Made by a program: the position numbers and the translations under genes. Shown here one piece after another: positions 2,789 to 20,108 of a stretch of DNA of 20,361 nt. Source of the DNA: a virus; the IMG/VR virus record IMGVR_UViG_3300017613_003403, positions 1 to 20,361 of that record, one strand, 5' to 3'. Position 1 is the first letter of the stretch. Each line of letters begins with the position of its first letter. Below the pieces are notes generated by a model. That model was not told the origin of the DNA. It saw only the letters and a program-made list of their open reading frames with translations, and ran no database searches.

Positions 2789-3368
2789 TATATAATCCTT
2801 AGTTGACGTCCTTGATTAACGTATTCAAATATATCCTTCCCGGTGAGCGTTAATACACATAGCTTTGTCAAACAAACACGATACAGGTTTTTTATTAACT
2901 CATACAAAAACATCTGCACTTGTCAAGCGCAAATGGGACCACCAAGAATACCCATCTACCCTTTTGAAAACAAGTCGATTACATTCCAGATCTCAGTTCT
3001 TTTATTTCAGACTTTCAAATGATATCATCCCCCTCTTTTTCAGCATATCCAACTGAGACTATATGAATAAATATCTCGATATAATCAACTTTGCTGTGAC
3101 CCTTATGAAAAGGCCGAACTGATGTCTAAGCAGTCTCCGGTAATATTAAACTGAATATTTTTCGAAAAACTCGGGTGACCGGGTATGGCTTGGAAATGCG
3201 GCTTAGTATATCTCTTGTCCCGCTTCCTTATCACGGGGACAATCCGTATACAGTTTTTATAATCCCTGGAATTCTAAAAAAATGATCGCCTTCTTAAAGC
3301 TCTTTCCCTGAGAATCACCATCAATGGCATTTCAAAGAGCTGAGCTTTCATTGTTTTTGGGATTTTTC

Positions 3369-3778
3369 AGTGGTCCCACTTCCGGTTAACTAGTTCATAC
3401 AGGCCGCATACCTTTCTTGTTGGCAAGACGCCATATGAAGTTTATGAAGGACTTACGCCTGCGAATTCGAAGCCACGACTTTAACCTCGGACTCACTGGC
3501 CACGCGGTAGCCCATGCGCCGCACCTCAAACGAAAGTCAACGGACAGACTGGAGCAAAGTTCGTTCTGACCGTTGCTTTCCTGGAAAACAGAAAACATCT
3601 TCCGATCATTGAACTGAGAAAAACGGCTTAACTATATTCAAATATAGAAGTTTTCCCGTAGGGACATTCTGCTTTCATATTATTTTTTGTTTTTAAAGAG
3701 CTGAAAATTCACATCTGCTATGAGTTCAGTAGGGTGTTTTTTCGGTTAATTTTTGGCTTATAGATTCGTTGGACCACT
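3369..3778. mobile_element. possible 410-base remnant element bounded by AGTGGTCC / GGACCACT
   Basis: An 8-base perfect inverted repeat bounds this stretch, and sequences adjoining each end recur in the 686-1228 gap (AGTCCCACTTCCG and CGTTGGACCA there). It has no transposase. The match is short and the internal sequence is not obviously a unit, so this may be a miniature element, an IS remnant or coincidence within a repeat family. Confidence 0.25.
3731..3776 (+). repeat. degenerate dispersed repeat, copy 2
   Basis: This is the partner of 1077-1121. If the copy at 1077 is translated (GCFLCNYWLLYSLDQF), this copy gives GCFFG, then after a one-base shift NFWLIDSLDHY. Related reading at protein level suggests either a decayed gene family or a repeat preserved for other reasons. 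It lies 49 bases downstream of the NACHT gene's stop. Confidence 0.5.
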
Positions 3779-3824
3779 ACATTCCTTCCTCCTTTTCCAG
3801 GCTTTGCCAGGCGCACTAACAAGT

Positions 3825-5267: not shown

Positions 5268-5324
5268 AGGAGTTGCATTAGGTACCCAGGTGAACAGTTC
5301 ACGATAATACTCTGTGGCAATTTC

Positions 5325-6302
5325 TCATTGTTCAAGTTCACGGTATCTGCCGATTGCGCTCACAAGGTCGCGAAATGGATCATTATTAACTTTAAACGGT
5401 ATATTTTCAGACTCTGCCCTCTTTTGTATCCGAGAAACTGGATCTCTTAATGATTTCTGAGCAGCAATGGTAACTTTGTCAAATAAGATATCGTAATCTG
5501 TTCCTTTTGTACGTTTTACTTTAATAGTCGCCTTGTATTTTTTAGCGATCTTTTTTGCTTTTACAATTTCGATATCACTTATATTTTTAATCCTTTGCCA
5601 TTTGCGGGGTTTTACAGTTTGTCGGATTGCATAATCAACTCCAGGACTTTTGTTTTCTACTGAAAGATCAACATATATAGAGTTTAAGTCTATAAGTTCT
5701 CCAATTCCAAATGCTGATGATTCTTTAACATAACTCATTGTTTTTGTAACAGCGGTTCGATATCGTACTTCGTTGCTCAATCCTTCAAGTACACATGGGA
5801 TATGTTTTATTGCTTCGCTTACAAGAATTGGTCCGTCAATGATAGTAATATCACGCTGTTCTAAATCTTGAAACTGTGCAAGGTTGTTGTTCAGTACGTA
5901 AACATTAATTGCAAAGGGTGTAATGAAAATGAGTCTATCTGGAGGTCTACACTCACTTGCGAGTGGATCTGTTACGGGCTCCAAAGCAGCTTGGATAAGC
6001 TGACTTCGCAGGTGAGTGAATGAGTTTGTGTTAGTCTGTTTTCCGCTAAACTTATATTTTTTAAGTTGAATGGCATATAACTTTGATCGACCAATTTCAC
6101 TCTTAATTGCAACTAGATCTCTTCCTTTCTCTATTGGTCCTGATGTATCCCTAACATGTTCGAAGCCTTGTGAAAGCAACAGGGGTTCTACGATCTTTAA
6201 CTGCAACTCTTTTTCTGTAAGTTCGGTTATTTCTTTAATTATGTCTTTAATAAAGTCATTATTTTGATTGATATTATTAGAGCTTTTATTTTGCTTATTC
6301 AT
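5325..6302 (-). CDS. Mrr-like restriction endonuclease (N-terminal part of a split nuclease-NACHT gene)
   Basis: In this 325-aa protein, residues about 25-160 fit a PD-(D/E)xK nuclease of the Mrr/restriction-endonuclease type: helix ELTEKELQLKIVEPLLLSQGF, then GPIEKGRDLVA with the metal-binding Asp at 62, then LYAIQLKKYK with the QxK motif at 79-81. These are the catalytic elements expected for DNA cleavage. Residues 165-325 are a lysine-rich helical linker. The TGA at 5327-5325 is followed in the same frame by 19 sense codons and then the NACHT NTPase. Mrr-like nuclease fused to a STAND/NACHT NTPase is a known antiphage design (Avs4-type and other bacterial NLR-like proteins), so this is probably the effector of one split gene. 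The start at 6302 has only a weak ribosome-binding site, but a TGA lies just upstream. Confidence 0.8.
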   Translation of the reverse strand: MNKQNKSSNNINQNNDFIKDIIKEITELTEKELQLKIVEPLLLSQGFEHVRDTSGPIEKGRDLVAIKSEIGRSKLYAIQLKKYKFSGKQTNTNSFTHLRSQLIQAALEPVTDPLASECRPPDRLIFITPFAINVYVLNNNLAQFQDLEQRDITIIDGPILVSEAIKHIPCVLEGLSNEVRYRTAVTKTMSYVKESSAFGIGELIDLNSIYVDLSVENKSPGVDYAIRQTVKPRKWQRIKNISDIEIVKAKKIAKKYKATIKVKRTKGTDYDILFDKVTIAAQKSLRDPVSRIQKRAESENIPFKVNNDPFRDLVSAIGRYRELEQ

Positions 6303-6497
6303 AGTTACTCAGTTCGTCTAATATTTATAAACTGTACTGGTCTAGCGTTCTTCTCTGAAGACCTTATCAGCTCAAACAAACCTTAATTTCTAAAATGACC
6401 ATATGTTACAATTTCCCTCTAAGAGGGCAAAACGCCAACTCCAGGAGATTCTTATATGGCTGATTATTCCATCCTTCAGATCTCCCGGTAATGGTCA

Positions 6498-6516
6498 AAG
6501 CAAATCTGATTTGCTT
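6498..6516. repeat. 19-base palindrome downstream of the lipoprotein gene
   Basis: AAGCAAATC, T, GATTTGCTT: nine-base perfect arms around one base, 38 bases beyond the lipoprotein stop. On the minus strand it is followed only by a short T run, so it is at best a weak intrinsic terminator; an operator is the alternative. It overlaps a repeat shared with about 3555-3601. Confidence 0.35.
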
Positions 6517-6553
6517 CTTGGAAGACAGAAAACACCTTTTCACTTCTGTTTCA

Positions 6554-7591
6554 TTAAAGTGATTCAATTATTTTTCCACTATTGTCCTTAACTAACTTCC
6601 CAAATTTAGTAATTAATTCCTTTGTTTTACTTGTATCTTCCTCGATAATTTTAATTCTAAGAAGTCCAGTACCGGCATAATTACTTTTCTCAATATCCTC
6701 AGGCTTTGGAAATCCTGCTAAAAATCCAACTTTACTATTTAAACCATTATCAGGCGTAAAAAACTGATCCTCATCATTTAGATTGACTAAAGGAAGTTCA
6801 AATGTCACACTTGCATTTGATTTAACTGTTAAAGATTTTTTTTGGTTATTTTTATCATCATTAATAGATCCATTAACCCCATCGACTTTATTTAATGAAT
6901 GCACATCTAATGTTACTGTTAATTTTACTTCTTCTGTGGTTTCCCTTAATGCATGCCACCAAAACAAAGGAATATATGACCACCATCTATTTGAAGCTAC
7001 TTTAGGTTTAGAGCTTTTTAAACTAAAATAAATTGGTGCAATCATGATAGATTCACCATCTCTTGCATTTCCAAGACCAATAGCAAGCTGAAAACATTTA
7101 CCATTAGTGGTTTCACGTGTTAAAAGAATGCATCTATAGTTCTGTTTCCATTCAGTGCCCTCTTTTACCCAAAACTCATCAAAAGCAGCAACATAATTCG
7201 TTTCGACTTGATAACGATTAAGCTCTTTATCTGCTTGGTTAGTAATAAAATCAACAACCAGGCTTGCCCCAAAAGCAATTGCTGTATCTATAAGACCTTC
7301 TGCTTCATCAACGCCACTATTCTCCGTTGCCCCTTTTGCTTTTTTATCGTCAGTATTCCCCTCTGCTCCTTCTACTTTTTTGTACATTTGTTTATAATAA
7401 TCACTTAATAATTTTTCATCATTCTTATCATCTATCAGATTCTTTTCATCCAACTCGCTCGTGTTTAAGAATTGCACTTTAGTTTTTTCTTTTGACCTAT
7501 CATCTGATTTAGGGTGAATTGGTAGCATTATGCTACACCCAGTAAAGAAAAACATAATAACAATTATCAAATAGCTATTAAATCGTGCCAT
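6554..7591 (-). CDS. putative outer-membrane lipoprotein, unknown function
   Basis: This 345-aa protein starts at ATG 7591 with AAGGAG seven bases upstream. The N-terminus is a lipoprotein signal peptide: Arg at position 3, hydrophobic YLIIVIMFFF, lipobox FTGC with Cys19 as the lipidated residue. Position +2 is Ser, which by the Lol rule favours the outer membrane. Residues 24-95 are a charged linker rich in Lys, Asp and Glu. A glycine/alanine helix (about 98-115) and a mixed-strand domain follow, with an aromatic-rich segment RWWSYIPLFWWH (202-213). I do not recognise the family. It lies upstream of the nuclease-NACHT gene on the same strand with a 251-base gap, so co-transcription is possible but not shown. 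Its presence next to defence-type genes may be chance cargo. Confidence 0.75.
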   Translation of the reverse strand: MARFNSYLIIVIMFFFTGCSIMLPIHPKSDDRSKEKTKVQFLNTSELDEKNLIDDKNDEKLLSDYYKQMYKKVEGAEGNTDDKKAKGATENSGVDEAEGLIDTAIAFGASLVVDFITNQADKELNRYQVETNYVAAFDEFWVKEGTEWKQNYRCILLTRETTNGKCFQLAIGLGNARDGESIMIAPIYFSLKSSKPKVASNRWWSYIPLFWWHALRETTEEVKLTVTLDVHSLNKVDGVNGSINDDKNNQKKSLTVKSNASVTFELPLVNLNDEDQFFTPDNGLNSKVGFLAGFPKPEDIEKSNYAGTGLLRIKIIEEDTSKTKELITKFGKLVKDNSGKIIESL

Positions 7592-8433: not shown

Positions 8434-8462
8434 TTGACAATACCCTAACAACTTATTAACAT
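8434..8462 (+). promoter_or_regulatory. sigma70-type promoter for the phage-like operon
   Basis: TTGACA at 8434-8439 is a perfect -35 box. Exactly 17 bases later TAACAT (8457-8462) matches four of six -10 positions including the conserved T, A and T. The surroundings are AT-rich, and the first gene of the long plus-strand run starts 76 bases downstream. No operator half-sites were clear. Confidence 0.5.
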
Positions 8463-8538
8463 ATATACGTGTTATTTGAGGCTAACTCAGTTAGTCTTAC
8501 CTGTCTTTGATTGTATATATAGGGGTATTCAAAAAGCC

Positions 8539-9855
8539 ATGGATAACAATCACGAACTACAGTCACCGGATACAATGAATGTTGAATGGACGCCGATCAC
8601 CAGCCTGTTCTGCAGTCCGTCAAATCCCCGTATCAACGACAACGCAGTCCCCCATGTGGCGGCGTCTTTAAAACGGTTCGGATGGCGACAGCCTATTGTT
8701 GCAAAGCCTACTGGTGAAGTGATAGCAGGAAACACCCGGTTGAAAGCAGCGCAGTCTATCGGCATGACAGAGGTCCCGGTGGTTCGGTTTGATGGTGATG
8801 ATATCGAAGCCACTGCTTTCGCCATTGCTGATAACCGGACTCATGAGTTCGCTTCTTGGGATGATGAATCACTGGTTCAACTGCTGAATGAGCTTCGTGC
8901 TGAAGATGCTCTGGACGGGGTTGGATATTCTGATGAAGACATCGATTCTTTACTTTCAGAACTCGAAGACGAGAACTTCACCCCTACTGACATCGATGAT
9001 CCTGGACCTGACACTCCCCCACTCAACCCTGTCGCTAAACCTGGGGATATCTGGATACTGGGTGACCATCACATCCTGTGCGGCGACTCAACCAACCCGG
9101 ATGATGTAGCACGGGTTTTGAATGGTGAAACAGCTTCTCTGCTTTCTAGCGATCCTCCATATGCCGTCGGCTACACTGGCATGGACCGTCCTATCCATGA
9201 TGGCAAGCCAAGCGGTAAGGACTGGACTCACGTCTATCATGAAACGGATATCAAGGACCTGAGTGAGTTCATGGACAAGGTATTCACTGCTTGTCTTCAA
9301 CACATCAAACCCGATGCCGCCATATACGTTTGGCATGCTCATATCCAGCAACCGACTATCGCCGCAACCTTCGAGAAGCATGGACTTCTTCTCCATCAGG
9401 TTCTCGTCTGGGTGAAACCTACAGCCACATTCGGACATTCCTATTATCGCTGGCGTCATGAACCCTGCGCGTTCGGCTGGTTGAAAGGCCACAAGCCTAC
9501 TCATGGGATGGGTCAGTTGGATTCTATCTGGGAAGTGGACTGGGAAGGCAAGTCCCGCGTTGTTGGCAATGAACATCCAACTCAAAAGCCGTTAAGACTA
9601 TTTGAAATACCGATGGAACAACACACAAAACCTGGCGCTGTCATTCTCGAACCGTTCTCAGGGAGCGGTAGCCAATTGATCGCCGCTGAGAAACTCGGTA
9701 GGAAATGCAGAGCAATAGAAATAGAACCGGCGTTCGTGGACGTAGCTATAAACCGCTGGATGAAGGCTACTGGTAAAGAAGCAGTGCTCGATGGGACGGA
9801 CAAAACGTTTGAACAAATGAAAACAGAAAGGACAGGCTCATGCTGTACTGGCTGA
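8539..9855 (+). CDS. ParB-domain DNA methyltransferase (orphan, phage-type)
   Basis: From ATG 8539 the protein is 438 aa. A TTG at 8476 in the same frame is possible, but its extra 21 residues do not resemble the family. Residues about 14-110 are a ParB/Srx-type nuclease-like domain with GEVIAGNTRLKAAQSIG. The methyltransferase part follows: GDIWILGDHHILCGDS (about 169-184), motif IV SDPPY (204-208) and the SAM-binding motif I EPFSGSGSQLIAAE at 371-384. Motif IV before motif I and DPPY indicate a beta-class amino-methyltransferase making N6-methyladenine or N4-methylcytosine. No cognate endonuclease is nearby. ParB-methylase fusions are common in phages and mobile elements just before the terminase, as here, and probably protect the element's DNA. 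The last 16 bases overlap the next gene. Confidence 0.9.
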   Translation: MDNNHELQSPDTMNVEWTPITSLFCSPSNPRINDNAVPHVAASLKRFGWRQPIVAKPTGEVIAGNTRLKAAQSIGMTEVPVVRFDGDDIEATAFAIADNRTHEFASWDDESLVQLLNELRAEDALDGVGYSDEDIDSLLSELEDENFTPTDIDDPGPDTPPLNPVAKPGDIWILGDHHILCGDSTNPDDVARVLNGETASLLSSDPPYAVGYTGMDRPIHDGKPSGKDWTHVYHETDIKDLSEFMDKVFTACLQHIKPDAAIYVWHAHIQQPTIAATFEKHGLLLHQVLVWVKPTATFGHSYYRWRHEPCAFGWLKGHKPTHGMGQLDSIWEVDWEGKSRVVGNEHPTQKPLRLFEIPMEQHTKPGAVILEPFSGSGSQLIAAEKLGRKCRAIEIEPAFVDVAINRWMKATGKEAVLDGTDKTFEQMKTERTGSCCTG

Positions 9856-10079
9856 CATCAATAGCCGCTCTCGTTGGAGTGTGGCTCAATATCAAAAAGC
9901 ATGTGTCCTGCTTTTATATTTGGGCTGTCACTAACGTAATCTGGACCTATGCTGATTTCAGTCACGGAATCTATTCCCAAGCCACACTGCAGGCCGTTTA
10001 CTTCATGCTCGCCATATACGGCATTCACAAATGGAAGAACCGCAAGCTCATCAATGGAAAGGAGAAAAACCATGGCTAA
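9840..10079 (+). CDS. short PnuC-like membrane protein
   Basis: This 79-aa protein has three hydrophobic segments (about 2-19, 25-42, 50-67) and the pattern WLTSIAALVGVWLNIKK, CFYIWAVTNVIWTYADF, LQAVYFMLAIYGIHKWK. The pattern resembles the repeating unit of the nicotinamide mononucleotide transporter PnuC, but full-length PnuC is about three times longer. Short PnuC-like proteins are common phage cargo. Whether such a fragment transports nicotinamide riboside, perhaps as an oligomer, is unknown. ATG 9840 has AAAGGA seven bases upstream and overlaps the methyltransferase end by 16 bases; its own end overlaps the TerS start by 8 bases, indicating translational coupling. Confidence 0.7.
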   Translation: MLYWLTSIAALVGVWLNIKKHVSCFYIWAVTNVIWTYADFSHGIYSQATLQAVYFMLAIYGIHKWKNRKLINGKEKNHG

Positions 10080-10545
10080 GATTCCCCATGATGCGTTCAT
10101 GTTTTATTTTGGTCTCGGACCTGACCGCAGTTATCAAGCCGTGGCGGATAGATTCGGCGTCACGAAACGGACTGTGTGCAGTGTGGCGAAGAAAGAAGGT
10201 TGGCAGGGAAAAGTAACAGAGCTTGAACAGAAAGCCCGTGAGGCCACTGAACAAGAGGCTGTCGAGTCCCTCAAAGCCATGAACACCCGGCACCTCAAAT
10301 CGATTAGAGTGATTCAAGGAAAAGCGCTTGAAGCCTTAAGAAGTAAGTCACTCACAACAGCCTGGGAAGCGGCCAGGGCTCTTTCTTTAAGCATAAAAGA
10401 GGAACGTTTGATACAGGGTGAACCGACCGACAGGAGTGCTATTAAGGTGGAGGATGTAATTCGCAAGGAATACGACCGGTGGTTGAGTAGCACAAGCGAT
10501 ATCAAAACGGGGGGTGATGATGCAGACGACACAGACGCTGAATAA
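10072..10545 (+). CDS. terminase small subunit-like protein (HTH)
   Basis: This 157-aa protein has an N-terminal helix-turn-helix: RSYQAVADRFGVTKRTVCSVAKKEGW (about 19-44), followed by an Ala/Glu-rich helical region. That is the usual build of phage small terminase subunits, which bind the packaging site and load the large subunit. The assignment rests on this fold plus the position immediately before a clear large terminase. ATG 10072 follows AAAGGAG by seven bases. An upstream in-frame ATG at 9949 would lie inside the PnuC-like gene and adds unlike sequence, so I reject it. The end overlaps TerL by 26 bases. Confidence 0.75.
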   Translation: MAKIPHDAFMFYFGLGPDRSYQAVADRFGVTKRTVCSVAKKEGWQGKVTELEQKAREATEQEAVESLKAMNTRHLKSIRVIQGKALEALRSKSLTTAWEAARALSLSIKEERLIQGEPTDRSAIKVEDVIRKEYDRWLSSTSDIKTGGDDADDTDAE

Positions 10546-11857
10546 GATAACATTTTTCAAAGATCTGGGATACGAGCCGCATAAAGGACAGCAGGAAGTA
10601 CACGCTTCCACAGCTCATCGTCGGATATTGAGCTGCGGCGTACGCTGGGGCAAGACCTTATGTGCTGCAATGGAAGGGCTTGCAGCCGCTCTGGAGCCAA
10701 AGAAGCGGTCTATGGGATGGGTGGTTGCTCCTACTTATGAACTGGCGGACAAGGTTTTCAGGGAACTCGTAATCCTTACGGCGGAACATCTACGACATCG
10801 AATTGTAACTTTAAAAGAGGGCGAGAAGCGCCTTATCATCCGCAATATGGCTGGCGGGATTTCCGAAATCAGGGGGAAGTCGGCTGACAATCCGGTGTCG
10901 CTCCTCGGCGAAGGTTTGGATTGGCTGATTGTCGATGAAGCGGCACAACTAAAACCGAAAATCTATGAGTCATACCTTAGCCAGAGGCTGATCGACAAGA
11001 AAGGTTGGGCGCTCCTGATTTCAACTCCAAAAGGCAAAGGTTGGTTTTACGATCTTTACCGTCTTGGTCAGTCTGATGATCCCGACCATCAAAGTTGGAA
11101 TTCCCCATCCTGGAGCAATCCCTATCTTGACAGGCAGTTGATTGAAAAAGAAAGGATGAAAGTTCCAGAAAGCGTCTTCGAACAAGAGTATGGCGGTAAG
11201 TTCATTGAAGGGGCTGGTGCGGTCTTCAGGAAAGTTCGAGAAGCAGCCACAGGCGGATGGCAAGAACCAAGAAGGGGCGAGGGTTATAGCGCCGGATTAG
11301 ACCTCGCTAAGGTCCAGGATTTTTCAGTTTTGGTAATCATGAACGCTAATCGGGAGGTCATGCTCGTGGACCGGTTTAATAAGCTCGATTGGAATATTCA
11401 GGTTAACCGTATTCAGGCTACAACAGAAAAATACAACGATGCTTATGTCCATGTCGATTCGACGGGAGCGGGCGAGCCTGTGTATGAAGCCCTCCTAAAT
11501 GCAGGAATCCGCTGTACACCTTACACTTTTACTCAAAAATCCAAGGCTGCATTAATAGATTCTCTTTCTATTATCTTCGAGAAGGAGTTAATCACTCTAC
11601 CACGTCCTGATCTTTTTCCAGCAATGGTTGAAGAGCTCGAAAACTTCCAGTACAGTGTGACCGATCAAGGGAATGTCAAGAGCTCAGCCCCGTTCGGGTA
11701 CCACGATGATTGTGTTATAGCTTTAGCCTTAGCAGCGTGGCCGCTCCGAAAAGACTATGATTATGACTGGATGTTTGACCCTCTTTCCCATAATACAGAG
11801 GGCTGGCCTGAGGGCGGTTCATCTATGGGCTCATTTGTTCCTGGTTTTACATGGTAG
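10520..11857 (+). CDS. terminase large subunit (TerL)
   Basis: This 445-aa protein has both TerL domains. The ATPase shows Walker A CGVRWGKT (about 39-46), a Q-motif-like WVVAPTYELADKV, Walker B LIVDEA (136-141) and the coupling motif LISTPKGKGW. The RNase H-like nuclease shows three acidic motifs: GLDLAKVQDFSVLV (Asp about 261), VHVDSTGAG (Asp about 313) and GYHDDCVIALALA (Asp 396/397). It translocates phage DNA into a procapsid and cuts it. Length is normal and no catalytic residue is missing. ATG 10520 is chosen because the G-rich stretch at 10509-10514 is five bases upstream; GTG 10514 and ATG 10517 also lie in frame. The usual next gene, a portal, is absent: an integrase follows after 139 bases. 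Confidence 0.93.
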   Translation: MQTTQTLNKITFFKDLGYEPHKGQQEVHASTAHRRILSCGVRWGKTLCAAMEGLAAALEPKKRSMGWVVAPTYELADKVFRELVILTAEHLRHRIVTLKEGEKRLIIRNMAGGISEIRGKSADNPVSLLGEGLDWLIVDEAAQLKPKIYESYLSQRLIDKKGWALLISTPKGKGWFYDLYRLGQSDDPDHQSWNSPSWSNPYLDRQLIEKERMKVPESVFEQEYGGKFIEGAGAVFRKVREAATGGWQEPRRGEGYSAGLDLAKVQDFSVLVIMNANREVMLVDRFNKLDWNIQVNRIQATTEKYNDAYVHVDSTGAGEPVYEALLNAGIRCTPYTFTQKSKAALIDSLSIIFEKELITLPRPDLFPAMVEELENFQYSVTDQGNVKSSAPFGYHDDCVIALALAAWPLRKDYDYDWMFDPLSHNTEGWPEGGSSMGSFVPGFTW

Positions 11858-11996
11858 TCATGACTTCCAGATAAAGCGCACTCTATCAGGCATCTTAAAA
11901 ACCATCTTATTCCCCACATTTCTATTGAATACATTTCAGGGATTCTGATCAATGGAGCGCTGTATTAACCTTTGGTTCCACTTCAAGGAGGGCGCT

Positions 11997-12878
11997 ATGA
12001 AAATCCAGGAAGCGTTAGAGAAATTCATCATTCAGCTTAAAGCGAATGGGCGCTCTTTTCATACGATCAATCAATACGAAAGACATGTTAGTTTGTTTGG
12101 CCACTGGATGGTCAAGGTTGAGCGTAGTGCCATCATCAAATCGATTTCGCATAAGGACGTAGCTTCCTTTCTCGTATCTTCTATGGCGCGAACACGGCGT
12201 TACGGGGGCGTTAAAAAAGCGGTTTCGATGAACGCTCTACGAAGTTCGTTAAAAGGTTTCTTTCAGTATCTTCATAAGGCAGGCTTAATCACACAAGATC
12301 CCACACGGTTGACGAGAAGGGCTATCTGCGGTACTCCCCCACCGAGGACACTCAGTGATGCAGATAGAAAGAGGCTATTCGATCTGCTTGAGAAAGGCTT
12401 GGGATTTGAAACTAAAAGAGATAACGCTTTATTCAAGCTGATGATCGAGACAGGGATTAGGTTGGGCTCAGCGATTGCACTCGATGTTGAGGACGTTGAC
12501 CTGGATAATAATGAGATTTGGCTTAACAGCACCAAAGGCGACCGTCCAGAAAAAGCGTTCATCCCTCCTTCAATTCATACTTTTTTGTTCGACTTAATAG
12601 CCATGGTAAAGTCTGGCCCCCTCTTCACTGCAAGGAATGGTAAACGGCTTTCTATACGTCACATTCAACGCAGGTTTCGGATTTGGCAGGAAAGGGCTGG
12701 GATTAAGAGGATGGCGTCGCCACATATCCTACGGCATACTTTTGCAAGCCGGTTATACCAACGCTCAGGTGATATCTTTTTAGTAAAGCAAGCATTAAAA
12801 CACCGAAGCATTACCTCAACCCTCATCTATGCACACGCTGATGAATCTCGACTCAAACAGATCTTATCTATTAATTAA
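11997..12878 (+). CDS. tyrosine recombinase / integrase
   Basis: This 293-aa protein has XerC/D-like size and layout. The N-terminal SAM-like core-binding domain begins MKIQEALEKFIIQLKANGRS. The catalytic domain has TGIRLGSA (Arg about 155), a lysine in STKGDRPEK (about 180), HILRHTFAS (His 243, Arg 246), LKHRSITST (His 269) and LIYAH (nucleophile Tyr 278). All expected catalytic residues are present. ATG 11997 is preceded by AAGGAGG at five bases, favoured over an earlier in-frame ATG at 11952. There is no N-terminal arm-binding domain, so it resembles simple Xer-type or integron-neighbour recombinases rather than lambda integrase. It probably mediates integration, excision or dimer resolution; no att core is visible. 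The 139 bases before it carry nothing recognisable. Confidence 0.9.
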   Translation: MKIQEALEKFIIQLKANGRSFHTINQYERHVSLFGHWMVKVERSAIIKSISHKDVASFLVSSMARTRRYGGVKKAVSMNALRSSLKGFFQYLHKAGLITQDPTRLTRRAICGTPPPRTLSDADRKRLFDLLEKGLGFETKRDNALFKLMIETGIRLGSAIALDVEDVDLDNNEIWLNSTKGDRPEKAFIPPSIHTFLFDLIAMVKSGPLFTARNGKRLSIRHIQRRFRIWQERAGIKRMASPHILRHTFASRLYQRSGDIFLVKQALKHRSITSTLIYAHADESRLKQILSIN

Positions 12879-12901
12879 AGAAAGTGAATGTTAGGATAAT
12901 C

Positions 12902-12947
12902 AAGACTGAATCCTTATGATTCCATTATTTGATGGGGATTCAGCCTT
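12902..12947. repeat. 12-base inverted repeat after the integrase gene
   Basis: AAGACTGAATCC (12902-12913) and GGATTCAGCCTT (12936-12947) pair with one mismatch around a 22-base AT-rich loop. It begins 24 bases past the integrase stop. No long T-run follows, so a weak terminator is possible; a recombinase-binding site is an alternative given the neighbouring gene. Confidence 0.4.
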
Positions 12948-13002
12948 ATCGTTAATTGTAAAGGTAGTAAACTGTGTAATATTGCAAACAGGACAACAAA
13001 GC

Positions 13003-13821
13003 ATGTCTAATTATGAGCTATATCCCAACGAGATCATTCAGATTTGCGAGAATATGGAAACTTCATTACATGAGTATACAAGATCAATTTCGCGAGCTAT
13101 TGGTCATAATAAGGACTATCAAAAAGTAGATAAATTCCCTGACCTTGTAGAGATGGCATATCAAAATGTTGAGAATACATTTATTCGGTTTAAACCAATA
13201 CTTGGTCTTTGGGAAGATCTTAATCTTTTTATGAATTGGAATGATGTGCCAACCTATAAGGACGTTACGTGTTATCGTGATTTAATCATACTGAATGAAC
13301 AGAGAGCGCTACCTATCCTACCCAGTGGAGAAAGAAATCCCATTTATGAAGAGATAAATGGATACTTCACTGATATCAACACAGTTTTGAATAAAGCGAG
13401 ACAGCAGACTGAAATAGTAGTTATTACGAATGCCCAGGATGTTGAAAAGATAAGAAACCATGGTGTATCAAAAGTGTTGAAACCTAATTGGGTCAATAGA
13501 AAGAAATTAGAAGAAAAAAAACAATGCGCAAATGAAAATCCGAATATTGGCTCAGATGGTCCACCAACTCAAATAAAGTCAAGTGATCCAGGAGAGCTTG
13601 TTATTAAAATATCAGATTTCCTCCGCATAGTTGATCCAAAAAGTAAGCGCAGCATTCAAAATGAAGCCTGGAGAAAGAATCTATCTTTAGATCCATCAAA
13701 GCCGGCAGATAAAATAGGTAAAGCTCATCACTATAATCTTCATGATTTATATGCTGACTACAAAGAGAAAGTGAATCCATCAATAGATACTCCGCTTACA
13801 GAATTTAAGATTTACTGCTAA
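13003..13821 (+). CDS. unknown protein, probable cargo gene
   Basis: From ATG 13003 (weak AGGA about ten bases upstream) the protein is 272 aa; an ATG at 12916 in frame would lie inside the inverted repeat. I do not recognise it. Residues 1-150 look all-helical and charged, with no signal peptide or membrane segment. A polar low-complexity linker (about 175-198, NENPNIGSDGPPTQ) separates a small basic C-terminal domain (about 200-272, LVIKISDFLRIVDPKSKRSIQ ... HHYNLHDLYADY) that could be a winged helix. Base composition is visibly more AT-rich than flanking element genes. It sits alone between integrase and excisionase-like gene, the usual place for accessory cargo such as a defence or superinfection gene; that role is a guess. 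Confidence 0.65.
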   Translation: MSNYELYPNEIIQICENMETSLHEYTRSISRAIGHNKDYQKVDKFPDLVEMAYQNVENTFIRFKPILGLWEDLNLFMNWNDVPTYKDVTCYRDLIILNEQRALPILPSGERNPIYEEINGYFTDINTVLNKARQQTEIVVITNAQDVEKIRNHGVSKVLKPNWVNRKKLEEKKQCANENPNIGSDGPPTQIKSSDPGELVIKISDFLRIVDPKSKRSIQNEAWRKNLSLDPSKPADKIGKAHHYNLHDLYADYKEKVNPSIDTPLTEFKIYC

Positions 13822-13846
13822 AATCCATCTAAAAAACCGTCCTCAG

Positions 13847-13906
13847 AAAGTACTTAAAAGTAAAAAAAAGTACTCAAAAGTACTTCAAAGTACTCAAAAG
13901 TGAAAA
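13847..13906 (+). repeat. six 10-base units in helical phase (iteron or operator array)
   Basis: Units start every 10 bases at 13847, 13857, 13867, 13877, 13887 and 13897. They read AAAGTACTTA, AAAGTAAAAA, AAAGTACTCA, AAAGTACTTC, AAAGTACTCA, AAAGTGAAAA. AAAGT is invariant and AAAGTACT occurs in four. Spacing near one helical turn places all sites on one DNA face, suiting cooperative binding of a small protein. The array ends 76 bases before the AlpA/excisionase-like gene, the obvious candidate ligand. Confidence 0.7.
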
Positions 13907-13982
13907 GTCACTCTTCAAGATCTCATGACAGCTTCCGTTATTATAGGTAGATGCACAATGAACCTTAATAGTGGAGGCGTAA

Positions 13983-14189
13983 ATGTCGGACAATCTTGAA
14001 CTCCCAACAAAGTATCTCAATGAGAAGCAGGTTAGTGAATTAACTGGTTTGGGTTTGTCAACACTCAAGAATCATCGCTTTGAAAAGAGAGGAATACCTT
14101 TCGTTAAGGCGGGTCGTTCAGTTCGCTACAACTCCAAAGATGTCCTTGAATTCATGGAATCCAACAAAGTGATTCCAATTCATGAATAA
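13983..14189 (+). CDS. AlpA/excisionase-family HTH protein
   Basis: This 68-aa protein is a MerR-like winged helix of the excisionase type: KYLNEKQVSELTGLGLSTLKNHRFEKRGIPFVKAGRSVRYNSKDVLEFMES. It has a recognition helix (LSTLKNHRF) and a wing carrying GRSVRYN. Such proteins act as recombination directionality factors for tyrosine recombinases or as small activators. ATG 13983 has GGAGG five bases upstream. The phased AAAGTACT array just upstream fits autoregulation or an excision complex. The stop codon sits within the Shine-Dalgarno region of a micro-frame that leads into the replication gene, so it may be first in the replication operon. Confidence 0.8.
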   Translation: MSDNLELPTKYLNEKQVSELTGLGLSTLKNHRFEKRGIPFVKAGRSVRYNSKDVLEFMESNKVIPIHE

Positions 14190-14200
14190 GGAACTGAGTT

Positions 14201-14251
14201 ATGAATTGGATACTGCTTTGCAAAGAGTTTGTGGTGGAGAGTGAAGAATGA
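14201..14251 (+). CDS. 16-codon leader frame coupled to the replication gene
   Basis: ATG 14201 with AAGGA eight bases upstream opens MNWILLCKEFVVESEE and stops at TGA 14249-14251. The initiator's ATG is 14248, so the two overlap as ATGA. This fits a translational coupling leader that sets the rate of initiator synthesis. It may also be chance, since it is very short. Confidence 0.35.
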   Translation: MNWILLCKEFVVESEE

Positions 14252-15090
14252 GTTTCGCATATCTACCTGAATCCGTTATGTCTAAATGGTCTCAGCTATC
14301 GCCATCAGCAAAAGCTGTTGCCGGAAGCGTGGCGAGCTTCATGGATGGACAAGCGACAGGTTGTTGGCCCAGTATCAGTACGCTCAAGAAACATTCTGGA
14401 TTGAAAACTGAAAGGACTGTTCGAAAAGCGCTACAAGAATTATCAGATGCTGGAATACTGATTAAAAAGAAAAGGTCAGGCCAGTCAAACCTATTCTCAT
14501 GGGCTAAACCCCTGACATCCAATGCAGGGGGTGCAACAGATGCCACCCCTGACATCCAATGTAGGGGGACCCCCTACATCCGATGCACCGAACCCCCTAC
14601 ATCCATTGCACCCCTAAGGATACCAAAGAAGGATACCAAGAAGGATAACTCACAAAAATCTTCTGGTACAAAGAGCGACCATCCAAATGATGGGCATATC
14701 TGGAAATGTTGGATTGGCAAAAATAATGATGCTGGAAGACGAGCTCCGGTTAGGAATGGACCAGATCTGAACACAGCTAAACGACTCGCTGATATGGTCA
14801 ATGCCAAAGATTTCACTGAAGATGAATTGATGCAATGCATGGAAGCTTATCTTTCCGATCCAGATAAATGGCTCAACGATAATGGACATGCTCTACGGTT
14901 TCTTCCTGGGAAAATAAACACTTATCTGAATTCAGACTATCATGCGCACTCCCTTGAACATAAACGCTCTGAAGATGAGTTTGCCGCCGCCTCTCTTGCA
15001 TATGCAGAGAGTGGATTTGAAGAATCCATAAGTGCAAAAGACCAAGATGGAAAACAGAACGCCAAGCTTTCGGAAAGGAATCCAGTGTGA
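14248..15090 (+). CDS. replication initiator-like protein (winged helix, lambda O / RepO type)
   Basis: In this 280-aa protein, residues 1-86 form a winged helix: MSKWSQLSPSAKAVAGSVASF, GCWPSISTLKKHSGLKTERTVRKALQELSDAGILIKKK. The type is shared by phage replication initiators (lambda O N-domain, PF13730-like). A polar linker (about 88-145) follows, then a helical C-terminal region (TAKRLADMVNAKDFTEDELMQCMEAYLSDPDKW) that may load the helicase. The DNA encoding the linker is an iteron cluster (14509-14610), so the gene probably contains its own origin, as lambda O does. ATG 14248 has GGAGA nine bases upstream. The stop overlaps the GTG start of the primase-helicase. I infer origin recognition; an alternative is a simple regulator. 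Confidence 0.8.
   Translation: MSFAYLPESVMSKWSQLSPSAKAVAGSVASFMDGQATGCWPSISTLKKHSGLKTERTVRKALQELSDAGILIKKKRSGQSNLFSWAKPLTSNAGGATDATPDIQCRGTPYIRCTEPPTSIAPLRIPKKDTKKDNSQKSSGTKSDHPNDGHIWKCWIGKNNDAGRRAPVRNGPDLNTAKRLADMVNAKDFTEDELMQCMEAYLSDPDKWLNDNGHALRFLPGKINTYLNSDYHAHSLEHKRSEDEFAAASLAYAESGFEESISAKDQDGKQNAKLSERNPV
14509..14610 (+). repeat. four 18-base iterons: probable replication origin
   Basis: Copies at 14509-14526, 14546-14563, 14570-14587 and 14593-14610 read CCCCTGACATCCAATGCA, CCCCTGACATCCAATGTA, CCCCCTACATCCGATGCA and CCCCCTACATCCATTGCA. Start-to-start spacings are 37, 24 and 23 bases. They lie within the initiator's linker codons, the lambda O arrangement. Three GGATA-type units follow at once (14616-14650). 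Confidence 0.75.
14559..14579. repeat. 21-base perfect palindrome within the iteron cluster
   Basis: ATGTAGGGGG, A, CCCCCTACAT: ten-base perfect arms. It joins the end of iteron 2 to the start of iteron 3 and could extrude a GC-rich hairpin or bind a dimer. Confidence 0.75.
14616..14650 (+). repeat. three AAGGATA-type direct repeats beside the iterons
   Basis: AAGGATACCA at 14616-14625 and 14629-14638, then AAGGATAACT at 14641-14650. Starts are 13 and 12 bases apart. In lambda-like origins the region beside the iterons is the melting site; these A-rich repeats occupy that place. Confidence 0.55.
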
Positions 15091-17069
15091 CAATTCAAGA
15101 GATGTCCACTTCCAAGTCACTGAATCAGTATGCAAGCATTGTTTGGACGTTAAAAGACCTGATTGAAATTCGCGCCCTGCCTACGAAAAGAAAAAATGGC
15201 TATCATCCTGAGTCTCTCTGGATTTTTGCTGAAGAGCTACCAAATCTGACTGACCGGCTTATGGAAATGAATAACGCCGGATTGAATATATACGCAGGAG
15301 TCTGTCCTCGGAAAGCAGAAGGCTCTGCGACTGATGTGGAAACCTTACCTGGTTCAGTTCTATGGACTGATTTTGATCACATTGAACCTCGTGAAGCATG
15401 GGAGCATGCCATTGGGGTAGGAATGCCTCGTCCGACTATGGCAATAAATTCTGGTAATGGATGCCACTTATATTGGAGGTTGAATAATAAAGCGCCTCTG
15501 GATGAACTATCAACCCTCGTCGGTGATATTGCAGCACACCTCGGAAGCGACCCTAGTGTGAAAAATCTTTCCAGGATAATGCGATTGCCGGGATTCATGA
15601 ATCTCAAAGATCCTTGCGCCCCATGCAAATTGCTTCATGCTGAGCCTAATACTCGATATGATTTTGCTGAGCTCAGAGATGCTGTTCCTCGAGTGAGACA
15701 AGAGCCGTCTGCTGTCAGCATTGCTGGAAATAATAATCTCCAAAAGCTCTCAAGGAGCATCACCCATCCTTCCAGTGAGAGTACTTCATTAATCGAGCGC
15801 GGCAGAAAATACGCCGCTAAAGTACAGGGAGCTACTCCAGGCGGCAGAACAAACACTGCGTTCCGATTAGCGGCGGCTCTTCATAATGACCTTGGGCTTT
15901 CTGAGTCCGAGACTTTGTCAGTCCTCACTGAATGGGATATGTCGGCAAACTCGCACTCAATTTCAACAGATTACGGCCCCGATGAGCTTCCCAAGATCAT
16001 TAGAAATACTGCTAAGTATCACAAAAATCCTCCAGGCGCGCTTGTGGATGCGAAACAGCCAGTTACAGCTTCTCAACAATCAGGGATTAAAATACAACTT
16101 CCATCTGAATCTCCGTGTTCAACATTAGCAGATGAATTCGAGGCAGAGGGTTTGGGATTGCGAAAGACGATTCCATTTCCATGGGCAAGATTGACGGATA
16201 TAACTCGCGCTCTACGACCAGGAGCGGTCACAATCATCGCAGGACCATCAGGTCATGGAAAAAGCTTTTTTGCTCTCCAAATCGCCGCACATGTTCACAA
16301 GAACAACGAGAAGTTCGCCTATCTGATATTAGAGGATAGAAAAGTTGACTTCGAACGGCGATTACTTGCTTACCTTTCAGATTCCTGGGAGGTTATCAAT
16401 GACACACAAGAAGGCGCCGATTACCGAAAAAGTATTTTGCATCAGTACGAACATGAGCTTCAGGAGCTTTCAACGAATGTCGCAGAAAATCCAAGATTGC
16501 CAGTTAAAAGGTCTAATGGTTTACCTATCATTCCACCACTACCATATCAGAATGTCATAGACTGGGCTGCAGAGGTGATGAATTCCTCACGAGTGATCTT
16601 CATTGACCCACTCGCTCAGATTGATTTCGGGGAACGTCAGGAGTGGAAAGGGCAAGGGGATTTCATGCGTCAAATCACTGGCATGGCGGCGCATTTCGGA
16701 TCTTCAATCATTTTAGTTACTCATACAGTCAAAAGAGGTGGAAGAAATGGATCACTGCCTCTAACGGGGGAGGATATCCAAGGGGCGGCTGAGATAAAGC
16801 GACTCAGCCATACTATCCTGATGCTTGATGTCCATGATGAAAAAGAATCAGAGGTATGGAGAGGCGGGGGACATAGAGAGACGGTTCTTCATAATAAGAC
16901 AGTTATTGTTGATAAAGCCCGAAACGCTTCAGGAAAAGGGAATAGAGTTGCATTCAGTATGGAAAGCCCTGTGTTTCAGGAACTAGGTGTCATAGCGCCA
17001 AAAGAGAAGAAGTGCAATCCCAATTCACTGGGAAAAGGCAATCCATCAGACCGGGCTTATAAGGATTGA
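15087..17069 (+). CDS. primase-helicase (AEP-like primase + RecA-like ATPase)
   Basis: This 660-aa fusion starts at GTG 15087, seven bases after AAAGGA and overlapping the initiator's TGA; ATG 15102 is the alternative. The N-terminal domain fits an archaeo-eukaryotic-type primase or RepB-like polymerase: VLWTDFDH with Asp95 and Asp97, SGNGCHLYW (122-130) and RIMRLPGFMNLK (163-174). Residues 235-320 (TNTAFRLAAALH ... IIRNTAKYH) resemble a PriCT linker. The C-terminal domain is a RecA/AAA_25 ATPase: Walker A GPSGHGKS (386-393), LILEDRK, Walker B VIFIDPLAQID (503-513) and ILVTHTVKRGG (542-552). It should unwind and prime DNA at the adjacent origin, giving the element replication independent of host DnaB/DnaG. 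All key residues are intact. Confidence 0.88.
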   Translation: MTIQEMSTSKSLNQYASIVWTLKDLIEIRALPTKRKNGYHPESLWIFAEELPNLTDRLMEMNNAGLNIYAGVCPRKAEGSATDVETLPGSVLWTDFDHIEPREAWEHAIGVGMPRPTMAINSGNGCHLYWRLNNKAPLDELSTLVGDIAAHLGSDPSVKNLSRIMRLPGFMNLKDPCAPCKLLHAEPNTRYDFAELRDAVPRVRQEPSAVSIAGNNNLQKLSRSITHPSSESTSLIERGRKYAAKVQGATPGGRTNTAFRLAAALHNDLGLSESETLSVLTEWDMSANSHSISTDYGPDELPKIIRNTAKYHKNPPGALVDAKQPVTASQQSGIKIQLPSESPCSTLADEFEAEGLGLRKTIPFPWARLTDITRALRPGAVTIIAGPSGHGKSFFALQIAAHVHKNNEKFAYLILEDRKVDFERRLLAYLSDSWEVINDTQEGADYRKSILHQYEHELQELSTNVAENPRLPVKRSNGLPIIPPLPYQNVIDWAAEVMNSSRVIFIDPLAQIDFGERQEWKGQGDFMRQITGMAAHFGSSIILVTHTVKRGGRNGSLPLTGEDIQGAAEIKRLSHTILMLDVHDEKESEVWRGGGHRETVLHNKTVIVDKARNASGKGNRVAFSMESPVFQELGVIAPKEKKCNPNSLGKGNPSDRAYKD

Positions 17070-17072
17070 TCC

Positions 17073-17357
17073 ATGAGGAATCTAAGAGTGTGCAAGAGAG
17101 ACTCTAAGCAAATGGAAAAGCACATGATAATCGACCTCCAGAATACTTCAGTTATGGCGCCCGATGAGAGACTGCTGGAAGTTGCCGCTATACTTGCCAT
17201 CGGATATCGAAAGTTTAGAAAATCCATGACAAAACCTGTAGTCTCCCCCACTGATGTTCCAGAAAACCGCCCATTAACCCGAGAAAGCTCTGGATTTCCC
17301 GGTCCCCCAGAGGCTTCATCGTCCTCGAACTTAACAGAGTTGGAGAATGCATCATGA
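17073..17357 (+). CDS. small conserved-type protein upstream of DUF2924 gene
   Basis: A 94-aa protein starting at ATG 17073, eight bases after AAGGA and three bases after the primase-helicase stop. The core APDERLLEVAAILAIGYRKFRK (about 29-50) is a helix resembling short unnamed proteins that sit before DUF2924/recombinase pairs in other mobile elements. The C-terminal half is Pro/Ser-rich and probably disordered. It ends in an ATGA overlap with the DUF2924 gene. Function unknown; the overlap and synteny suggest it belongs to the recombination cassette. Confidence 0.65.
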   Translation: MRNLRVCKRDSKQMEKHMIIDLQNTSVMAPDERLLEVAAILAIGYRKFRKSMTKPVVSPTDVPENRPLTRESSGFPGPPEASSSSNLTELENAS

Positions 17358-17860
17358 AGCTAAACATTACTGAACAAGTAGAGAAATTAGAACAGCTCAC
17401 GGTAAATGAACTCAGAATTAAATATCAGGAACAATTCGGTGAAGAAACGAGGTCGCGTAATAAGCCGTACTTGGTCAAACGGGTGCTCTGGCGAATGCAG
17501 GCCAATGCGCATAGCGGTCTCTCTGAACGCGCGCGCCACAGGGCTGTTAAAATCGCCAATGAAGCCGATTTAAGGCTCATAGCGCCTAAGAACGCCATTA
17601 AAACTGATGGCGCCTACAAAGGCGAATACGGCGCTCACAAGCTATCGTTAAAACTACGTGACCCACGTCTACCAATGCCTGGAACTGTGTTAACCAGAGA
17701 GTACAAAGGCGAGACGCTGCATGTCACTGTACTTCGAAAAGGATTTGAGTTCCAAGGCGAAGTGTACCGTTCGCTATCCGCAGTGGCTCGGAAAGTTTCC
17801 GGCAGCCAGTGGAATGGATATCTGTTTTTCAATCTTCAAAAGAGAACAAAGAAGAAATGA
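17354..17860 (+). CDS. DUF2924 family protein
   Basis: This 168-aa protein matches the DUF2924 pattern: LTVNELRIKYQEQFGEETRSRNKPYLVKRVLWRMQ (15-49), LSERARHRA, then PGTVLTREYKGETLHVTVLRKGFEFQGEVYRSLSAVARKVSG and WNGYLFFNL (110-161). The C-terminal part is an RRM/SH3-like strand set ending in the G-x-x-Y-x-SLSA motif. DUF2924 genes characteristically precede large serine recombinases in prophage-like elements; the molecular role is unknown, and a recombination accessory or DNA-binding factor is often assumed. It overlaps both neighbours by ATGA junctions, implying coupled translation. Confidence 0.88.
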   Translation: MKLNITEQVEKLEQLTVNELRIKYQEQFGEETRSRNKPYLVKRVLWRMQANAHSGLSERARHRAVKIANEADLRLIAPKNAIKTDGAYKGEYGAHKLSLKLRDPRLPMPGTVLTREYKGETLHVTVLRKGFEFQGEVYRSLSAVARKVSGSQWNGYLFFNLQKRTKKK

Positions 17861-19440
17861 CAAGAGCTTCTAAAAGTTGTATGGAAAACCAGCGTGAGAC
17901 CATCATGTGCGCAATCTATACACGCAAGAGCACTGATGAAAACCTGGATTCCGATTTCAACTCTCTGGATGCGCAGCGGGAAGCCGCCGAGTCATTCATC
18001 AATAGCCAAAAGCATGAAGGCTGGTCTCTTCATCCTGAACGATATGACGATGGTGGAATCAGCGGCGGGACCATGGACCGGCCTGCTCTCAACCAGCTGC
18101 TCAAAGCTGTAGAAGCTGGGATAATACACTGTCTCGTGGTCTACAAGGTGGATAGGCTTAGCCGCTCATTGCTCGATTTCACTCGTATAATGGAAATCCT
18201 TGACCGCAACCACTGTTCGTTCGTCAGTGTCACGCAGCAGTTCAACACCACCCACTCGATGGGTCGGCTTACACTGAACATCCTGCTTAGTTTTGCTCAA
18301 TTCGAGCGTGAAATCATCTCAGAACGGACCGCTGACAAAATGCGTGGAGCAAAACGTAAAGGTAAATGGGTAGGCGGATTTCCAATACTGGGATATGACA
18401 TCGCTGTTCAAGGCGGCGCTCTTGTCATCAATGAAGACGAAGCTGAAAAGGTTCGTGCAATATTTGACATTTATCTTGAGCGGCGGTCAATCACATCCAT
18501 TGTCCAAGAGTTGAATCGACGTGGCTGGACTACAAAGAAATGGATTTCAAAAAAAGAAATCGTGCATGGCGGAAAAGAATTCAACAAAGCATCTCTTTAC
18601 CGGATGCTCACCCACCCCGCCTATATCGGCCAGGTTAAGTACAAAGACGAGTTATACGAAGGCGAGCATGATGCTATCGTTGATGAACCGGTATGGCGTA
18701 AAGTTCAGAGTCTGTTAAAAAAGAATGGCGGACAGTGCGGCGTGAAGAGAAATAAATATGGCGCATTGCTCAGGGGTGTTCTCTACTGCACACCCTGTGA
18801 CTCGCTCATGGTCCATACCTCTACAAAGAAAGATTCCAGGCGTTACCGTTATTATACCTGTAGCAAGGCGCACAAGCAGGGATATGATGCCTGTCCAAGC
18901 AAATCGATTCCAGCCAATGAGATTGAACGATTCGTTGTTGAGCAGATTCGCGGTATGGGAAAGGACCCTGTACTGGTGGCGAAGACCGTCGAGCAAGTAC
19001 GCATGCAGCACTCAAATCACATCGATAGCCTGGAACAGGAAAAACGGATTAGTGAGAAAGAAATCCGTCGAATGCATGATGAGATTAGAAATGTTCTGAA
19101 CCGGAAGATAGAGAACTCTCTGATTGCTGAGCTTCTTGCTGATCTGCAGGACCGTATTAGAAAAGCGGAAGAACGGCTCGCCTGGATTAAATGTGAGATT
19201 TCAACTGCTCATGGTGAAGAGCTTTTTGAAGAAGAGATTGTGGCTGCTCTTTCAGCTTTTGACCCGGTTTGGGAATCGTTGTCGACCAAAGAACAGAGCC
19301 GCATCATACATCTACTGGTGGACCGAGTCGGATATGATGGGAAGAATGAGAAGATTACTATCACATTCCGTCCTACCGGGATTAAAACGTTAGCCAGGGA
19401 TTCTGGGTACACCAATGGGGAACACGAAAATGGCAGGTGA
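17857..19440 (+). CDS. large serine recombinase
   Basis: From ATG 17857 (ATGA overlap with the previous stop) the protein is 527 aa. The resolvase domain has CAIYTRKSTDE with nucleophile Ser25, SLDAQREAAESF, DDGGISGGTMDRPAL and VYKVDRLSRS with Arg100 and Arg103. The recombinase domain includes LTHPAYIGQVKYKD. A zinc ribbon follows with Cys pairs LYCTPC (311, 314) and Cys335/Cys346 (YTCSKAHKQGYDACPS), then a coiled coil (LEQEKRISEKEIRRMHDEI) typical of large serine integrases, where it controls integration versus excision. This is the second integrase-type enzyme in the element. No flanking att core could be identified. Confidence 0.93.
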   Translation: MTRASKSCMENQRETIMCAIYTRKSTDENLDSDFNSLDAQREAAESFINSQKHEGWSLHPERYDDGGISGGTMDRPALNQLLKAVEAGIIHCLVVYKVDRLSRSLLDFTRIMEILDRNHCSFVSVTQQFNTTHSMGRLTLNILLSFAQFEREIISERTADKMRGAKRKGKWVGGFPILGYDIAVQGGALVINEDEAEKVRAIFDIYLERRSITSIVQELNRRGWTTKKWISKKEIVHGGKEFNKASLYRMLTHPAYIGQVKYKDELYEGEHDAIVDEPVWRKVQSLLKKNGGQCGVKRNKYGALLRGVLYCTPCDSLMVHTSTKKDSRRYRYYTCSKAHKQGYDACPSKSIPANEIERFVVEQIRGMGKDPVLVAKTVEQVRMQHSNHIDSLEQEKRISEKEIRRMHDEIRNVLNRKIENSLIAELLADLQDRIRKAEERLAWIKCEISTAHGEELFEEEIVAALSAFDPVWESLSTKEQSRIIHLLVDRVGYDGKNEKITITFRPTGIKTLARDSGYTNGEHENGR

Positions 19441-19873
19441 GAATAAAAACGACACCAGCGCTCTTACTCTTGAATTTAACATTCATTTCAAGAAGAAGAA
19501 CAAGGGTAGGAAATGCATTGAAAATGGAAGTGCGCAGATACCACCGCGTTTAATGCCTGGGAAAATACCGCGAATTTCTCGTTTGATGGCGCTGGCTATC
19601 AGGTATGACAAGCTTATCCGAGAAGGAAAGTTGAAAGATTTCGCGCAGCTGGCGAAACTCGGACAAGTCAGCAGAGCTCGCGTGTCTCAGATTTCGAATC
19701 TTTTGAATCTTGCGCCTGATATTCAGGAAGAGTTGCTTTTCTTAGGCAGGACGGTGAGCGGAAAAGATACGATTACAGAACGACACATGCGGCCAATCCT
19801 GTCAAATCTATCATGGAACGAGCAGCGTAAGATGTGGAAAGAATTGAAAGAGCAGGTAATGAATAATGATTAA
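19430..19873 (+). CDS. HTH protein of the serine recombinase cassette
   Basis: ATG 19430 lies eight bases after GGGGA, giving 147 aa; ATG 19415 in frame is the alternative. The start overlaps the recombinase end by 11 bases. After a basic N-terminal region, residues about 45-105 are highly family-like: PGKIPRISRLMALAIRYDKL, then KDFAQLAKLGQVSRARVSQISNLL and PDIQEELLFL, a ParB/KorB-like helix-turn-helix. Proteins with this core regularly follow DUF2924-recombinase pairs. It is likely to bind DNA as a regulator or a recombination directionality factor, which large serine integrases need; this role is inferred. The gene ends overlapping the next by 8 bases. Confidence 0.75.
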   Translation: MAGENKNDTSALTLEFNIHFKKKNKGRKCIENGSAQIPPRLMPGKIPRISRLMALAIRYDKLIREGKLKDFAQLAKLGQVSRARVSQISNLLNLAPDIQEELLFLGRTVSGKDTITERHMRPILSNLSWNEQRKMWKELKEQVMNND

Positions 19874-20108
19874 GGATAATACAGATCCAATGGATAAGTG
19901 GCCTGAGTTCATGGAAGCTATCAAGAAACGGCTTAAAGCTGGGAAACGGGAGTATGGGGATTGCTCGTTCACATGTCCTGCTTCTGAAATCGCAGAAGAA
20001 ATTGAAGAAGAGCTGCTCGATGTAGCGGGGTGGGCGTTCTTTTTGTGGTTGCGAATCCGAAGAATGAGAAAATCGTTTATTAAAGGTTCGGCTTTAAATT
20101 CAACTTAA
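19866..20108 (+). CDS. small MazG-like/unknown helical protein
   Basis: In this 80-aa protein, RLKAGKREYGDCSFTCPASEIAEEIEEELLDVAGWAFFLWLRI has the EExxE-then-ExxD spacing (EIEEELLDV, about 46-54) of MazG-type nucleotide pyrophosphohydrolase helices. The protein is about half the usual length and lacks the second catalytic helix, so activity is doubtful. Homologous short proteins seem to travel with this recombinase cassette. It overlaps the previous gene by 8 bases and its stop overlaps the convergent Cys-rich gene by 4. The tail after RRMRK (KSFIKGSALNST) looks unlike the family, possibly altered at a junction. Confidence 0.55.
   Translation: MIKDNTDPMDKWPEFMEAIKKRLKAGKREYGDCSFTCPASEIAEEIEEELLDVAGWAFFLWLRIRRMRKSFIKGSALNST

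Follow-up and report, generated by a model that had tools for sequence, protein, structure and literature searches.

To our knowledge, the phage satellites described so far either redirect the terminase of a helper phage, with only a small terminase subunit (TerS) or a cos site of their own, or bring capsid and terminase together, as do the capsid-forming phage-inducible chromosomal islands (cf-PICIs). In the present study, we analyzed the whole 20,361-bp IMG/VR record IMGVR_UViG_3300017613_003403 (hereafter, the window), in which an element at about positions 8434-20108 on the + strand encodes TerS and a full large terminase subunit (TerL) but no capsid. The gene content of the element, the conservation of this content in relatives, the integrity of the catalytic motifs and the lack of detectable structural genes are observations. 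On this basis, we consider it rather probable that it is an integrative, self-replicating, phage-satellite-like element that supplies packaging specificity and motor itself and relies on borrowed procapsids.

Phage-inducible chromosomal islands (PICIs) are typically about 15 kb long and carry int, a regulator or AlpA, a primase-rep module with an origin and sometimes terS, and some Staphylococcus aureus pathogenicity islands (SaPIs) encode TerS only (PMC6092414). The element (about 12 kb) resembles them in having an integrase, an AlpA-type regulator, a primase and initiator with repeats as the putative origin, and TerS, without structural genes, so that every part of the PICI gene set is present. 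However, it also has a full TerL, a ParB-methylase, a second (XerC-like) recombinase, a serine integrase and co-oriented genes, and it belongs to a different phylum. In composition the element appears to work like a PICI, but we do not file it as one. The cf-PICIs have their own genes for capsid, protease, portal and connectors (PMC10690885); the element shares with them both terminase subunits but has no capsid, portal, protease or connector genes, and thus falls outside that group. P4-like and Pseudomonas AH14b satellites likewise have an integrase, AlpA and a primase and no structural genes (PMC4936722). However, P4 uses the helper terminase (PMC10690885) and has the capsid-size protein Sid, whereas the element has its own TerS and TerL, no Sid or Psu family match was found among the window proteins (Pfam, PHROGs), and it is not P4-like in this sense. 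The marine VEIMEs and tycheposons, which are named in PMC10803314 and PMC11389934, are likewise proposed to be integrative elements encapsidated in virions. Among complete phages, phage WO and Acidithiobacillus phage AcaML1 have homologues of the serine recombinase (41-45% identity over about 70% of the protein), and Thermus phages P74-26/P23-45 have a related TerL (about 32% identity, among the closest database TerLs); unlike the element, the former are full phages with structural genes and the latter have a full virion gene set. DUF2924 may be a further link between the integration module and Wolbachia phage. The portal, major capsid and tail genes expected of a temperate phage of the Caudoviricetes were not found in the window.

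The element comprises 14 genes on the + strand, which are tightly packed, as the first-pass annotation of this DNA had remarked (coding density here 96%), and its GC content is 45.4% versus 37.5% in the left flank. The features, in order, are as follows.

8539..9855, + strand, ParB_N-N6/N4 DNA methyltransferase (ParB-methylase), first gene of the element (PF01555, 2.7e-18; phrog_498, 4e-124)
9840..10079, + strand, half-size PnuC-like membrane protein, 79 aa (PF04973, 6.4e-12, profile positions 3-70 of 175)
10072..10545, + strand, TerS, conserved in relatives (phrog_6299, 2.7e-10)
10514..11857, + strand, TerL, ATPase and nuclease motifs intact (phrog_2, 8e-45; Terminase_6N/6C; motif table and tree)
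11952..12878, start more likely 11997, + strand, XerA/XerC-like tyrosine recombinase (TyrInt; PF00589, 6e-28)
12916..13821, + strand, U301, no Pfam, PHROG or NCBIfam match, putative regulator by position
13983..14189, + strand, AlpA/HTH_17 excisionase-regulator (PF12728, 1.4e-7; phrog_66, 7.8e-6)
14248..15090, + strand, HTH_36 replication initiator (PF13730, 2.4e-13; phrog_270, 1.2e-14)
14508..14612, + strand, iteron-like array within the initiator gene (direct repeats D2/D5, four units of 21-24 bp)
15087..17069, + strand, primase-helicase with RepB_primase-like N-terminus and DnaB/AAA_25 C-terminus
17073..17357, + strand, U94, no family match, at the place where relatives encode a SpoVG-like protein
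17354..17860, + strand, DUF2924 protein, putative serine recombinase partner (PF11149, 2.4e-41), adjoining the serine recombinase in relatives
17809..19440, start more likely 17881, + strand, large serine recombinase (PF00239, PF07508, PF13408; phrog_95 integrase, 7.5e-124)
19415..19873, + strand, ParB-HTH-like protein of the integration module (phrog_14161, 5e-15), adjacent in loci L010, L015, L032, L034 and L039 (L numbers denote related loci)
19866..20108, + strand, U80, small protein of cluster c17, also found within the terminase module of L013

All genes named by the first-pass annotation were recovered on the + strand; it had overlooked the DUF2924 protein, the large serine recombinase and the ParB-HTH protein, as well as the TIR, NACHT and Mrr genes to the left. 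The large serine recombinase is probably the chromosomal integrase, and the iteron-like array is a probable replication origin. Only U301, U94 and U80 have no assigned family.

In the window TerL, the Walker A and Walker B (DEA) motifs, the STP coupling motif and the acidic residues of the nuclease are all retained, in agreement with the initial reading of a catalytically intact enzyme. Of the phage terminases with solved domains, those of the Thermus phage P74-26/P23-45 type are its nearest relatives. As also proposed at that stage, Pfam and PHROGs annotation places an integrase-type recombinase directly after TerS and TerL and finds no capsid genes. Neither method detected a structural phage gene in the window, be it in the element or on either side of it; inspection of the other side, which had been suggested as a check, revealed only lipoprotein, Mrr-type nuclease, NACHT and TIR genes, which lie on the opposite strand. 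Profile scans found no relics of morphogenesis genes in the window or its relatives. Among 103 otherwise unassigned proteins inside related elements, the Pfam scan identified 22 families in all, none of them structural, and no structural family was present among the best 25 of the 55 PHROGs families found for element proteins. The module table has no portal or major capsid protein in its 39 element rows including the window, several of which are short contigs. As a positive control, the PHROGs method finds portal, major head and protease families on phage contigs with a related TerL. Portal queries from L005/L006 miss the portals of other phages (L045-L047, L160), and for this reason it is the PHROGs and Pfam scans that carry the negative result. 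For the Mu-type portal search there was no positive control.

These results bear on the possibility that the element belongs to a complete virus or transfer agent, the capsid, portal and tail genes of which are unrecognizable or are found at a second locus on the chromosome. U301 and U94 are without family, and a split-genome arrangement is possible in draft genomes. However, proteins of 301, 94 and 80 aa cannot encode portal, capsid and tail, and in several relatives the protein at the U301 position has an HTH-like segment at its end. Furthermore, none of the 16 host genomes searched has the HK97 portal and only one has the HK97 capsid, which is on other contigs, so that structural proteins would need an outside source. 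We regard this explanation as very improbable.

Relatives were gathered by TerL searches of genome and viral collections, which gave 28 genome loci, mostly from Planctomycetota at 57-70% identity, together with viral contigs. The module set recurs in about 38 related terminase loci, almost all of them from Planctomycetota genomes or from contigs of IMG/VR. The recurrent order is ParB-methylase (the leading gene in most relatives), PnuC in some, TerS, TerL and a XerC-like recombinase, either alone or behind a protein having only the SAM-like domain (SAM-only protein). A divergent protein, often with an HTH-like end, follows, and then replication genes of the CHC2, DUF3987 or Prim-Pol type and a SpoVG-like protein. 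The terminal integrase is either DUF2924 with a serine recombinase and ParB-HTH, or AlpA with a phage tyrosine integrase. No portal or capsid gene was detected in any of these loci, whether between terL and int, where its presence had been named as fatal to a satellite-like layout, or in the rest of the element; the capsid-less module set is conserved, and the comparison supports that layout. Judging from the sequences, the element is a member of a widespread family of mobile elements in Planctomycetota. The family is apparently previously undescribed: we found no description of it in the openly licensed literature, and literature searches found no described satellite in Planctomycetota.

A deletion-derived prophage, in which the morphogenesis genes have been lost, was the alternative raised at the outset. 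In its favor, the ParB-methylase precedes TerL in the phage-type contigs L031 and L047 as well, from which a phage origin of the packaging module is probable. However, the capsid-less architecture is conserved across many genomes of the phylum with intact catalytic residues, no structural-gene relics were seen, and the coding density is 96%. A defective prophage is therefore disfavored, and is the least probable of the explanations that we weighed.

The neighborhood of terminase and tyrosine recombinase, which had been proposed for comparison among relatives, is conserved: the recombinase directly follows TerL in 12 loci, the window counted, and in three more (L025, L030 and L151) a small SAM-only protein lies between them. 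In L010, L018, L026, L027 and L147 the recombinase precedes the terminase, and several loci have none near TerL; the adjacency is common, not universal. Of 392 planctomycete genomes, 18 have TerL and 20 have the tyrosine recombinase; the two co-occur in 13 (p=9e-16, genome kinship ignored), and in 12 of these 13 they are on one contig. The XerA/XerC models score best for the recombinase, yet below their cut-offs, and the catalytic R-K-HxxR-H-Y residues are largely retained in relatives. The SAM-only protein (cluster c12, an integrase SAM-like N-terminal domain alone) was found in L014, L021, L025, L027, L030, L136, L151 and L228-L231, mostly just upstream of the XerC-like recombinase, and the pair may be a two-component recombinase.

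The relatives form a series with respect to the terminase: full TerL, TerL with a Cys4 zinc-ribbon-like segment replacing the nuclease domain, TerS without TerL, and neither. All full-length TerLs of related elements retain the ATPase and nuclease motifs. The nuclease-less form was found as 11 proteins in nine loci (L034, L043, L044, L146-L149, L152 and L153, with two each in L152 and L153); its ATPase motifs are intact and CxxC-(about 21-24)-CxxC stands in place of the nuclease domain. Examples are as follows.

L034:9989-11011, zinc-ribbon-like TerL
L043:3068-4003, zinc-ribbon-like TerL
L044:1118-2029, zinc-ribbon-like TerL

These proteins form one clade (96/97) and were not seen in the portal-bearing phages examined; the ribbon fold cannot be confirmed from the structural model (mean pLDDT 55). 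L229 and L230, from one genome, have the methylase and TerS without TerL in otherwise similar elements. L231 has neither subunit; neither is visible in L235 or L236, although these two begin at contig ends. Separately, tandem or paired terminase genes occur in one locus in L017, L041, L043 and L044, suggesting that packaging modules have accreted repeatedly.

This series allows a different role of the terminase, in which TerS and TerL of an integrative element do not package its DNA and instead interfere with phage packaging, by occupying portals or cutting concatemers, or process DNA with the XerC-like recombinase, the element spreading by other routes. The nuclease-less TerL is the sole TerL in L034, L146, L148 and L152 and is in tandem in L152 and L153, terminase-free elements exist (L231), defence-like genes flank the window element, and HK97-type structural genes are nearly missing from the host genomes searched. 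However, TerS alone is kept in L229/L230, and full TerL retains all packaging motifs over deep divergence; the retention of TerS without TerL, as in TerS-only SaPIs and PICIs (PMC6092414), points to redirected packaging specificity. Moreover, like satellites, the element carries genes of its own for replication and for integration. We consider a non-packaging role unlikely, although less so than a prophage remnant or a complete virus.

Our preferred explanation remains a satellite-like element, which might function as follows. The serine recombinase, with DUF2924 and ParB-HTH, would integrate and excise the element, as its families imply; the initiator would bind its own iterons and, with the primase-helicase, replicate the excised form. 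TerS would recognize a packaging site on the element DNA, and TerL, as motor and nuclease, would dock on the portal of the procapsid of an infecting helper phage and fill it with this DNA. By annotation, in the window and across the family alike, capsid, portal and tail are not among the products of the element. AlpA, and probably U301, may regulate induction. Less certainly, the XerC-like recombinase may resolve replication multimers or serve as a second integrase, and the methylase may protect or mark the element DNA. Several points weigh against this explanation. The satellite life cycle (helper, induction, excision, encapsidation) is deduced from genes only, the profile searches behind the absence of structural genes can overlook divergent proteins, and most hosts are draft metagenome-assembled genomes, possibly incomplete. 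Relatives with only a nuclease-less TerL indicate that terminase cutting is not always used. Furthermore, a search for exact and near-exact flank repeats found no att-site repeats in the window or relatives, which may be expected of serine recombinases with short cores; the candidate repeats were chance matches, dispersed repeats or local duplications.

Tentatively, and with somewhat less than even confidence, we propose a new class of phage satellites, mainly in Planctomycetota, that has a complete motor of its own and does not only redirect that of the helper. One monophyletic branch would have swapped the TerL nuclease for the Cys4 zinc-ribbon-like domain, and this motor without its own cutter might package ends that the helper has cut or a recombinase has made, or it might block packaging by the helper. 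The elements with TerS and TerL and no capsid, those with TerS only and the nuclease-less siblings would be a natural series showing which packaging parts a hitch-hiker needs. If this is correct, satellite biology extends to Planctomycetota, and contigs called viral from a terminase gene alone need rereading.

L146 and L148 become similar about 76 bp before the methylase, which suggests the left element end at this distance; the right end cannot be fixed because the record stops about 250 bp after the last gene. L146 and L149, from different genomes, have 86-88% DNA identity over methylase and primase with diverged terminases, which indicates that modules are exchanged between genomes. No tRNA was found at the ends of elements (in L010, a tRNA-Asn is located about 1 kb outside the element), and flanking genes in longer stretches of relatives resemble host genes. 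Promoter and terminator scans gave no more signal than shuffled sequence. For the primase-helicase, the search returned no closely related viral protein, and the matches to plasmids were only partial. U301 has no relative that we could find; its position in relatives is filled by divergent proteins, several with HTH-like C-termini by positional comparison, and its single-sequence AlphaFold model was unusable (pLDDT 35).

The short PnuC form of the window also occurs in L010, L015, L018, L027, L003/L038, L004/L039 and L041. Several relatives conserve this half-size protein at its place between methylase and terminase, and it recalls the half-size SemiSWEET transporters. In the Planctomycetes bacterium Pla163 (L108-L110), the element lies amid many dispersed repeats of 137-197 bp between small genes, and this region, which holds an HTH/toxin-like pair, resembles a cassette array. 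The TIR, NACHT, Mrr_cat and lipoprotein genes clustered on the minus strand at window positions 1229-7591 are possibly a defence island adjoining the element or carried by it.

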